47,289 nucleotides of DNA from an uncultured Bacteroidales bacterium (GTDB lineage: Bacteria; Bacteroidota; Bacteroidia; Bacteroidales; FEN-979), in NCBI GenBank assembly GCA_903929315.1, contig CAIYUC010000100.1:1-47289 (forward strand). The letters run 5' to 3'. The position numbers and the translations under genes are program-made. Below are positions 8,681-44,545 of the stretch, piece after piece (the stretch's first letter is position 1; each line of letters opens with the position of its first letter). A model generated the notes under the pieces. That model saw only the letters and a list, made by a program, of their open reading frames with translations, was not told the DNA's origin and did not search any database.

Positions 8681-8788
8681 TTAACCACAATGTGCACAAT
8701 GCCTGCCGGCCAGGCAGGTAAGCACAATGATCACGATGAAAATATTCCTTGTGGTCATTGTGTAAAGCATTGTGGTCATTGTGGTTAT
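8681..8788. repeat. Long imperfect palindromic element (CACAATG type)
   Basis: Outer arms AACCACAATG (8683-8692) and CATTGTGGTT (8777-8786) are perfect complements. Further copies of CACAATG in the left half and CATTGTG in the right half extend the symmetry inward. A second hairpin, CCTGCC/GGCAGG (8702-8707 and 8713-8718), is nested in the left half. It lies between two divergently transcribed genes, so it is not simply a terminator. Confidence 0.7.
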
Positions 8789-8894
8789 TTTTTTTTCCGG
8801 TAATTACTTTTATATATGAGAAAAAAGTTATTAACACTTGTATCACCTTTTGGGTTTTTGTTGATTAATGTTTAATCAAATAAAATTAGACTGT

Positions 8895-12087: not shown

Positions 12088-12097
12088 ATTTTTTTTC

Positions 12098-12176
12098 TTC
12101 ACCACGGAGGCACTAAGACACCAAGAATTTAAAATCACTGATTTATTGCTCCGTGTCTTAGTGCCTCCGTGGTGAA
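12098..12176. repeat. Perfect 24-bp inverted repeat hairpin
   Basis: The arms 12098-12121 and 12153-12176 are perfect reverse complements (left arm begins TTCACCACGGAGGCAC) around a 31-base loop. T and A tracts flank the outer ends. It lies between convergent genes and could terminate both. The sequence belongs to the repetitive 'CACCACGGAGGCAC' type familiar from environmental Bacteroidota genomes. Confidence 0.85.
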
Positions 12177-12190
12177 AAAAGGCTTGCAGA

Positions 12191-21695: not shown

Positions 21696-22144
21696 AATAG
21701 TATTATTTTTTACTTTAGTACTGTAATGTGTAATGCCTGTTTTAGGGAGAGCAAAATTAGTAAAGTCTTGCGTTAAATAAATGGAATTAACGGAAATTAA
21801 CTGATTATATCTACCTCACCCCCCGGTGGGTGTCCAATAAGTTTTTTTTTCTCGCAGAGTTTCGCTGATGAAATCGCAGAGTTTCGCAGAAAGCTGATAA
21901 CGTGCAGTATAACTCTGCGGAACTCCGCGAAAAACTTTGCGGAACTCCGCGAGAAATAATCTTTTTCATACATTTTAGACAACCCCAGAAGGGTGTGAGG
22001 CTTTAAATAATTCAATATTTAGAGTCATTTTTTTGGCCGGAATCTATTTTGTTCCTTATTTTGTCTTGCATTTCGTTATCCGGGTTATTCCTGTGATTGA
22101 AAATAACCATCTTAATACTGCGTTATTAAGTAAATGAAAAGATA
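21696..22144. other. Divergent intergenic region
   Basis: Separates the LolA-like gene (leftward) from the histidine kinase gene (rightward). Its centre is occupied by the palindromic element at 21848-21956. No coding sequence is credible; the minus-strand frame 21797-22015 is a translation of the repeat. Confidence 0.75.
21848..21956. repeat. Gene-less palindromic element (CGCAGAG type)
   Basis: Left arm 21848-21890 and right arm 21914-21956 are 43 bases each and align end to end as an imperfect inverted repeat, best in their outer 18 and inner 13 bases. The left arm begins TTTCTCGCAGAGTTTCGC; the right arm read from the other strand begins TTTCTCGCGGAGTTCCGC. The 23-base centre holds nothing coding. 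The outer arm sequence matches the arms around the GxxExxY gene at 25788-26251. Confidence 0.8.
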
Positions 22145-25660: not shown

Positions 25661-25787
25661 GTTTTTAAAATTCAGCAAGGAGCATTATTTTCTTTACAAA
25701 CGTAAGGAAAACTTTCGGGACAATGTGAGAAAAATTCTTATTCAGCTGAGGAACAGGAATGGTGATTTACCAGAATCGATTGAAATT

Positions 25788-25828
25788 TCTCGCAGATTTC
25801 CGCAGATTAAACGCAGATTTTCGCAGAT
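25788..25828. repeat. Left inverted repeat of the GxxExxY element
   Basis: 41 bases beginning TCTCGCAGATTTCCGC with further CGCAGAT copies inside. It matches the reverse complement of 26211-26251 at 35 of 41 positions. It ends one base before the stop codon of the GxxExxY gene. Confidence 0.85.
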
Positions 25829-25829
25829 G

Positions 25830-26210
25830 TTATAAATTATTTACGATCCTGATCAATGCTGTTTTGTTGAGGGATATCGCATTAAAATTTATTAACAACC
25901 CAAGCTTCTTATGCATCAATTTCAGGTATGTCAGTAGTTGTTTATGATGGATATCCAATAAAATGTCAACAGATTTAACTTCTATGATTACCAAATTATT
26001 CACCAAAATATCCAGACGAAATCCGCAATCAAAGTGAACATTTTCATATATCATTGGAATCCCCAGTTGGGTCTTAACTTCAAAACCCAAAGACCTTAAT
26101 TCATAAGCCAGAGCCCTTTCATAGACAGACTCAAGCAATCCGGGTCCTAAGGAATTATGCACCTTGAATGCCGCTCCCCGGATAAGAAAAGAAATTTCAT
26201 TCTCATTCAT
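25830..26210 (-). CDS. GxxExxY family protein with PD-(D/E)XK-type residues
   Basis: 126 residues from MNENEISFLIRGAAFKVH. The family signature is GLLESVY at residues 24-30 (Gly24, Glu27, Tyr30). A downstream nuclease-like core, FRLDILVNNLVIIEVKS, supplies Asp67, Glu77 and Lys79. This agrees with the placement of the family among PD-(D/E)XK-type proteins; activity and substrate are unproven. A longer frame runs to 26270, but those 20 residues are translated from the flanking repeat, so the ATG at 26208-26210 is preferred. It is bracketed by inverted repeats that touch both ends of the gene. It is not in an operon. Confidence 0.88.
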   Translation of the reverse strand: MNENEISFLIRGAAFKVHNSLGPGLLESVYERALAYELRSLGFEVKTQLGIPMIYENVHFDCGFRLDILVNNLVIIEVKSVDILLDIHHKQLLTYLKLMHKKLGLLINFNAISLNKTALIRIVNNL

Positions 26211-26251
26211 ATCTGCGAAAATCTGCGGATAATTTGCGAAACTCCGCGAGA
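26211..26251. repeat. Right inverted repeat of the GxxExxY element
   Basis: 41 bases ending ACTCCGCGAGA, directly adjacent to the GxxExxY start codon. It is the inverted partner of 25788-25828. Confidence 0.85.
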
Positions 26252-26451
26252 ACCTTTTTAAAGCAAGCAATTACATTAATCGGAATAATCTGAAAAGGTG
26301 ATACGTTTGTTGAGGATTTTTTTATAAAATTCAAATATGCACTTTTGCCAGGAGTATAATACTATTTCAATATGTCTAATAAAAGTTCTGAATACTTTTA
26401 GTTTAGAATCAGAAAATATATCATAAATTAGCTGATAATCTCTCCGGGCTT

Positions 26452-44442: not shown

Positions 44443-44545
44443 TTTCTTTGTGTTGCTTTGTGAATGCTTTGTGTTCTTTGTGGTTAAGCCTTTAAAAGAT
44501 AACCACAAAGGTCACCATGTTTTGCACAAAGTTCACAAAGATGTT
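44443..44545. repeat. Long imperfect palindromic element (CTTTGTG type)
   Basis: Core arms CTTTGTGGTTA (44476-44486) and TAACCACAAAG (44500-44510) are perfect complements. Several more CTTTGTG copies on the left face CACAAAG copies on the right. It fills the gap between the propeller gene and the RNase R gene. Confidence 0.75.

Follow-up and report, generated by a model that had tools for sequence, protein, structure and literature searches.

The window, by which we mean the whole 47,289-nt stretch of DNA analysed here, holds a GxxExxY gene enclosed between two inverted arms built of repeated heptamer words. Arms of this kind accompany GxxExxY genes at many other loci, and their words agree within a locus and follow the subclade of the protein. 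The reading favoured here, tentatively and just short of even confidence, is that of a one-gene chromosomal selfish hairpin element, in which a protein of nuclease fold would recognise its own word tetrads, maintaining or spreading its copies. The arms offer a concrete candidate substrate for GxxExxY, a widespread family.

The window locus and its protein

The left arm (25787..25828, plus strand) is a tetrad of four exact CGCAGAT words at offsets 0, 10, 21 and 31. The right arm (26211..26252, minus strand) reads inward as CGCGGAG, CGCAAAT, CGCAGAT and CGCAGAT, with the same 10-11-10 spacing. Each arm measures 42 nt; the two are 86% complementary, lie 382 nt apart and form the longest inverted pair among the pairs of at least 24 nt listed in the 47-kb window. 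The gene between them (25830..26210, minus strand; TIGR04256 / PF13366 PDDEXK_3) encodes 126 aa, including D67, E77 and K79. Its ATG (26208-26210) abuts the right arm at 26211, and the end of its stop codon at 25830 stands one base off the left arm at 25828. The preliminary description had drawn the arms as 41-bp inverted repeats agreeing at 35 of 41 positions, with internal CGCAGAT copies in each; the arms are real at the length and complementarity given above, the CGCAGAT copies number four on the left and two exact ones on the right, and the positions assigned to the start and stop codons, together with the residues, hold.

The 5' and 3' flanks of the locus score 54 when compared in inverted orientation, and in RNA folding the one arm base-pairs with the other (z -6.6), with 0 of 100 shuffles equally stable. 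Heptamer runs number 9 in the window, against 0.05 per Markov-generated window (20 generated). Outside the right arm lies a 5' leader (26253..26304, minus strand) with the box GTATCACCTTTTCAG..CCGATTAATG, common to other copies of the unit and homologous to L001, L004, L005 and L067. A similar box, GTATCACCTTTT..GATTAATG, precedes an unrelated large gene at about 8830-8868 of the window. The neighbours of the element are a SAM methyltransferase gene (PF10672) and a gene for a 543-aa protein without a Pfam match at E 0.001.

The window protein is a member of TIGR04256 (134.4 bits, cut-off 35) and PF13366 PDDEXK_3 (130.4 bits, cut-off 22) by score and by its catalytic residues. The PD-(D/E)XK-like arrangement of Asp67, Glu77 and Lys79 proposed earlier is borne out by the Pfam match and by the invariance of all three residues among 52 aligned relatives; the structure model reaches a pLDDT of 95.9 and a pTM of 0.89. 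For this model Foldseek returns zero matches reaching E 0.001, and a profile search at E 0.1 yields no relatives with a solved structure. The best neighbour aligned by VIA-align is SSO0001 (Z 9.7, 3.2 Å over 99 residues), which we take from its annotation to be a Cas4, followed by 3ijm (Z 8.4) and an archaeal Hjc (Z 7.4, where a Z below 8 may mean merely a common arrangement). The Pfam match, the invariant D/E/K residues and the neighbours of the structure model together support a predicted PD-(D/E)XK fold; folds of Cas4, restriction-endonuclease and Hjc type align with it best. The likeness to Cas4/RecB-type proteins consists of the SSO0001 alignment, a sub-threshold Cas4 match that is the only Pfam match at E ≤0.1 besides PDDEXK_3, and a weak match to the padloc Cas4 profile (16.1 bits, E 0.0026). 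Cas4 proteins carry four Fe-S cysteines, whereas the window protein lacks these and has a single Cys, and it is therefore not a Cas4-type Fe-S protein.

Among 17 intact Flavobacterium genes the median dN/dS is 0.077 over 106 non-independent pairs, and the GxxExxY protein is thus under purifying selection. Within the papers found, GxxExxY receives passing mentions only, with no biology described; the arms and their word agreement are likewise without a description in the literature searched, which under-covers subscription journals.

Arms and words at other GxxExxY loci

Across GxxExxY loci, arms consist of four heptamer words of the form CRCNRAG/T, spaced about 10-11-10 bp, roughly one word per helical turn. 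The 577 kb surrounding 143 unique GxxExxY loci contain 249 runs of CRCNRAK words, compared with 3 for the complemented-only and 3 for the reversed-only control over the same length. Three or four words make up 247 of the 249 runs; the four-word runs (n=133) show spacings of 10-11-10 in 45 cases and 10-12-10 in 35. The runs concentrate within 100 bp of the gene and point toward it from either side (42 forward runs upstream, 50 reverse runs downstream), and their density falls to between 0 and 4 per 100 bp at distances above 300 bp. A run within 150 bp is present on at least one side in 74/143 loci and on both sides in 26/143.

The pairing of the flanks was scored by aligning the 5' flank with the reverse complement of the 3' flank, a score of at least 30 counting as positive. 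By this test 65/140 GxxExxY loci are positive, compared with 8/236 neighbour genes (Fisher 1e-24). The bracketing that the preliminary description regarded as untypical of an ordinary gene, and for which it had proposed to look for arms at other GxxExxY loci, is thus systematic. Six of the eight positive neighbour genes are 23S_rRNA_IVP genes (S23, PF05635) and one is another PF13366 gene; the last is an ORF of 105 aa in a tract of palindromes and is taken as spurious. Among the 80 named loci, 77 have sufficient flank for the test and 35/77 are positive, against 461/5852 mismatched flank pairs and 6/150 neighbour genes; the scoring that gave the window locus its 54 covers the loci other than L008, L044, L046, L048, L066 and L074, and L067, read there as a wrong ORF, is excluded from later counts. 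The loci retrieved are the best-scoring matches, hence decayed copies are under-represented.

The words of the two arms belong together. In the loci armed on both sides (n=26), the word distance between own arms is 0.47, against 1.57 across loci (permutation p 1e-4). They also follow the protein: over the 74 of 143 loci that have a word run, protein distance and word distance correlate with a Mantel r of 0.50 (n=74, p 5e-4). For 35 disjoint nearest pairs the word distance is 0.88 versus 1.46 (p 5e-5), and for the 21 nearest pairs below 75% identity it is 1.13 versus 1.46 (p 0.0075), the near-duplicates L004, L005, L006 and L068 being excluded from the nearest-pair test. The agreement is carried mostly by word positions 2, 5 and 7. 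Proteins of the MEFDTVSKE type go with CACGAAG, those of the MEINQITEKI type mostly with CACRGAG, and those of the KEE..IIGA type with CRCNRAT. In MAGs titled Bacteroidetes (L113) and Planctomycetota (L114) the MTENEIS type is paired with CGCARAG, and a near relative of this type has CGCARAG in a MAG titled Melioribacter (L118). Shared ancestry is a partial alternative for the agreement between word and subclade, the statistics being computed without a host tree. Recognition could be studied with the naturally matched protein variants and DNA words that this agreement supplies.

This agreement in cis supports recognition of the words by the protein, and the likeness to arrays elsewhere in the genome supports it weakly. 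In the mechanism we propose, the GxxExxY protein would recognise its cognate word tetrads in duplex form or in an extruded hairpin or cruciform. It may then nick or resolve the tetrads, and copies of the element, or of a derivative lacking the gene, would thereby reach intergenic hairpin sites elsewhere. The arms could serve as the ends of a minimal transposon-like unit; alternatively, a gene-free palindrome would be cut and then mended on the template of a copy that holds the gene, as happens in homing. Binding, cutting and movement are inferred.

Copies, sites and gene-free palindromes

The genome of the window holds 8 GxxExxY matches, one of them truncated by a contig end. Matches above the cut-off occur in 26/43 genomes of the family and in 80/149 of the order sample, frequently as multiple and decayed copies. 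Phage records contain none (0/50,697), plasmid records 8/72,556 and IMG/VR 3 loci. GxxExxY is a chromosomal, patchy, multi-copy family. A phage or plasmid defence gene was considered and rejected on these phage and plasmid counts, on the lack of a PHROG match at E 0.1 and on the weakness of the padloc Cas4 match.

L001, L004, L005 and L067 are homologous to the window copy from 25783-25787 to 26304-26311, the BLAST ends being approximate. On the left the homology starts close to the outer end of the arm; on the right it takes in the leader box and reaches about 52 bp beyond the arm. L069 is similar to the window copy in the gene only. The segment 25786-26253, for which the preliminary description proposed to look for clean presence or absence and target duplications, is a candidate only for an exact mobile unit. 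L004 and L005 are nested in larger inverted ends, GGCTAAATCTTATTTTGATGTGC, about 690 bp apart, and in other genomes the GGCTAAATCTTATTTTGATGTGC core flanks gene L129 on either side and adjoins L140. If these outer ends were the mobile ends in this genome, the GxxExxY gene would be the passenger of a conventional transposon and the heptamer arms internal to it. This is very unlikely: the window copy lacks GGCTAAATCTTATTTTGATGTGC-type outer ends and is homologous only as far as approximately the left arm, the exact core gives an end at 6 distinct loci among those scanned whereas heptamer arms are frequent, and no second gene is seen inside. At the outer ends of L193 and L199 no target duplication is clear by eye, and the flanks of relatives have diverged too far for one to be read.

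At the window locus no clean empty site was obtained among the 14 relatives examined. The left neighbour is present without GxxExxY in 14/14, and the right neighbour is absent from the compared stretch too. A restriction-modification pair with the adjacent SAM methyltransferase was rejected as an explanation, since 14/14 relatives keep the methyltransferase without GxxExxY in the compared stretch. The comparison of occupied and empty sites called for in the preliminary description thus gives no clean site here, but relatives do differ in occupancy at an orthologous Flavobacterium site. As other GxxExxY loci are armed too, neither outcome named there as a refutation came about, and the interpretation given there is supported in part. 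A hemW-like radical-SAM gene (HemN_C) and a putative cyclase gene border the Flavobacterium site; of the 150 genomes searched, it was examined in the 30 best-matching loci and in 40 chosen stretches.

The occupants of the Flavobacterium site include GxxExxY genes with arms, 8-bp triad palindromes, a CGCTGAT/ATCCGCG palindrome and other genes. In L323 and L326 the site carries a tight, almost loopless palindrome of 4+4 words, and in L322, L340 and L360 almost nothing (16-29 bp). Sister species differ: L304 has the gene and L322 is empty (29 bp), while L305 has the gene and L335 gene-free words. The unoccupied alleles examined mostly hold other hairpins or genes. The tips of the element at this site are, by eye, TTAACC...GGTTAA. 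Unrelated occupants at one site would also be expected if terminator-like hairpins were hot intergenic sites attracting varied insertions, the gene merely landing there. Such a coincidence is scarcely credible, given that ordinary neighbour genes are almost never armed and that the words vary with the protein subclade.

The flank tree spans 63 of these species, with 25/60 inner branches well supported. The GxxExxY state requires 15 changes on it, of which at least 8 are forced, against a mean of 16.6 for shuffled labels; the presence of GxxExxY is hence hardly clustered. This tree excludes L303, L318, L354 and L361 (short), L341 (incomplete) and L343 and L345 (duplicates), and L330 is coded OTHER though it carries a GIY-YIG gene. 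Gene and flank identity correlate at 0.76 among the 17 intact Flavobacterium genes, a set that excludes L297, L302 and L310 (no intact ORF) and L354 (short flank). The AU p is 0.041 for the flank tree on the gene data and 0.007 for the reverse. As the gene and flank trees agree in broad outline, a long-standing presence with recurrent loss and replacement fits better than frequent jumping. A second Flavobacterium site has orthologous GxxExxY genes in L132, L142 and L152. At a further intergenic site shared by three species, L057 and L061 carry GxxExxY of one subclade and L073 of another, which suggests replacement at one site.

Orthologous retention at the hemW-like site and at the second site fits a gene useful to its host. 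The protein would then be an Hjc/RecB-like nuclease for autoregulation or hairpin maintenance that processes cruciforms, the arms would be an operator and a transcript hairpin, and the gene-free palindromes its substrates or transcription terminators. The strong purifying selection agrees with this, as do the start codon abutting the arm, the pairing of the arms in RNA and the presence of Hjc among the structural neighbours. Even so, a host function is distinctly unlikely: GxxExxY is patchy even among genomes of the family, many copies are decayed, the occupancy of one site varies, and single genomes have several copies carrying different words.

Under the favoured reading of a selfish hairpin element, gene-free palindromes would be MITE- or REPIN-like dependants of it; if this is true, many intergenic hairpins of Bacteroidota (CRCNRAG arrays) are dependants of GxxExxY genes. 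The window itself holds a gene-free tetrad palindrome of the arm word class (21853..21951) within a MITE-like unit with tips gggtgtccaataag / ttagacaacccc, which by eye belongs to a repeat family of genome-wide MITE-like copies. Exact CGCAGATNNNCGCAGAT sites number 45 in the genome, against 0 for the reversed pattern, and the retrieved CGCAGATNNNCGCAGAT loci (n=30) are, by eye, mostly gene-free palindromes in this unit. The unit (L009-L038; window 21820-21970) measures about 165 bp and has tips GGGGTTGTCTAATAAGTT / GGGGGTGTCCAATAAGTT, several copies lying at contig ends. Arms of the gene-free copies L024 and L027 of the same genome share 95.7% identity over 47 bp with the left arm of the window element. 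A second gene-free palindrome (12094..12180) is of the 8-bp triad class (CACGGAG CACTAAG CACCAAG). Other gene-free hairpins or runs occupy the window at about 8684-8786 and at 44446-44482; together with the one at 12094-12180 they are of related word classes, comprising CACGGAG/CACTAAG triads, CACAATG words and CACAAAG x4.

Between genomes, gene-free arrays stand closer to the arms of their own genome, with a word distance of 0.81 versus 1.21 (p 0.0013, 18 genomes). With one Flavobacterium kept (14 genomes) the p is 0.022, and with the eight order genomes alone it is 0.31. The comparison excludes genomes without a parsed GxxExxY locus or listed arrays, and G136, where the arrays lie beside the gene. 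Gene-free arrays may thus share their words with the arms of the GxxExxY gene in their own genome, a resemblance that is suggestive only. At the level of the order, the gene is present in 27/29 array-bearing genomes versus 55/120 others (p 2e-6), a co-occurrence that is partly trivial because the arms themselves count as arrays; when arrays are required to exceed twice the gene count, the figures are 10/82 versus 2/67 (one-sided p 0.036). Tandem series of palindrome units or arms occur at G136:C6:80925-83025 (beside L089), at L069 1928-2611 and at G184:C9:172760-177643, those of G136 and L069 directly beside a GxxExxY gene.

Other gene-bearing hairpins and known systems

Inverted arms are not confined to GxxExxY. 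S23/IVP genes of the same genomes (L252-L281) have them in 19/30 cases, versus 11/870 mismatched pairs, and their arm words vary by locus (by eye 7-8 bp). Three-word runs of the GxxExxY class occur at 0/30 of these S23 loci, L254 holding two such words. At the Flavobacterium site, five GIY-YIG genes (L330, L352, L355, L356, L357) are bracketed by inverted CTGAACTAGTTTCAGGATCT / AGATGCTGAAATAAATTCAGCAT words; the gene of L357 is PF01541 and that of L356 is broken. In the order of the window, 5/29 GIY-YIG genes have arms, versus 9/812 mismatched pairs, and the generalisation of this layout outside Flavobacterium is weak.

The S23 parallel points to a wider class of gene-bearing hairpins and argues against deducing a transposase role from the bracketing alone. 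As the S23 layout comes without a nuclease of PD-(D/E)XK fold, another factor may act on the arms, which weakens the step from a bracketed gene to a GxxExxY protein that moves itself. It is thus conceivable, though we consider it rather unlikely, that the hairpin element is generic: the arrays would be made and moved by a shared process or a trans enzyme (candidates are a RAYT-type transposase, a reverse transcriptase and replication template switching), and GxxExxY, S23/IVP and GIY-YIG would be alternative passengers that aid persistence. The armed S23 genes with their locus-specific words speak for such an element, as do the five bracketed GIY-YIG genes of Flavobacterium, though only 5/29 are armed in the order. 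In the genome of the window, the left part of the outer segment around GxxExxY copies such as L004 and L005 also stands ahead of a gene with a Y1_Tnp score of 21.1 bits (cut-off 23), which from its motifs we take to be RAYT-like. In L192, the GxxExxY leader segment at 1500-2497 is common to such a RAYT-like gene with Y1_Tnp below the cut-off. A published case adds to this side: in PMC4990558 the Coxiella 23S intervening sequence (IVS) is called selfish; it ends in inverted repeats, contains an S23 ORF and has heptamers in tandem ahead of the start codon of that ORF. Against generic arrays stands the finding that words track the GxxExxY subclade, which is unexpected for a passenger unless words and genes are simply co-inherited.

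A broader form of the favoured reading is possible, and we hold it with considerable doubt. It proposes a new minimal class of selfish elements in which one PD-(D/E)XK protein reads an evolvable code of four heptamers per arm, one for each helical turn, protein subclade and word co-evolving, while parallel S23 and GIY-YIG classes with words of their own vie for those intergenic hairpin sites in Bacteroidota and further phyla. If this is true, GxxExxY, S23/IVS and some GIY-YIG genes are gene-bearing hairpins that contend for the same sites.

Several known systems resemble the GxxExxY element in part. REPtrons and TIRtrons (PMC3733652) consist of a RAYT tyrosine transposase gene flanked by REPs or long inverted repeats, with dispersed REPs as well. 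The likeness lies in a small DNA-processing gene, inverted hairpin flanks, gene-specific repeat families and intergenic gene-free copies. The differences are that GxxExxY is predicted to have a PD-(D/E)XK fold and not HUH/Y1, that its arms are heptamer tetrads spaced ~10-11-10, and that the window arms, judged by eye, lack a GTAG/CGTC tag at the hairpin foot. By analogy, the GxxExxY element would work like a RAYT-REP system and is not a member of it. With the 23S rRNA IVS it shares a single small ORF between terminal inverted repeats and resembles the IVS in its heptamers, which in the IVS stand in tandem before the start codon (PMC4990558). Unlike the IVS, the window element lies outside an rRNA gene, judging by its neighbours alone, and has no S23 ORF by profile; the protein is unrelated and the word class is different.

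The GxxExxY element also recalls homing endonuclease genes in having occupied and unoccupied alleles at one site, and GIY-YIG alternates with GxxExxY in Flavobacterium. Homing endonucleases include GIY-YIG enzymes and the PD-(D/E)XK enzyme I-Ssp6803I. The GxxExxY element differs from their genes in that no intron or intein is seen and that arms flank the gene on both sides. Among Flavobacterium species, an S23/IVP gene lies upstream of the hemW-like gene in some and is absent in L123 and L149, and S23/IVP genes (PF05635) are bracketed by inverted arrays in L134, L135, L168 and L130.
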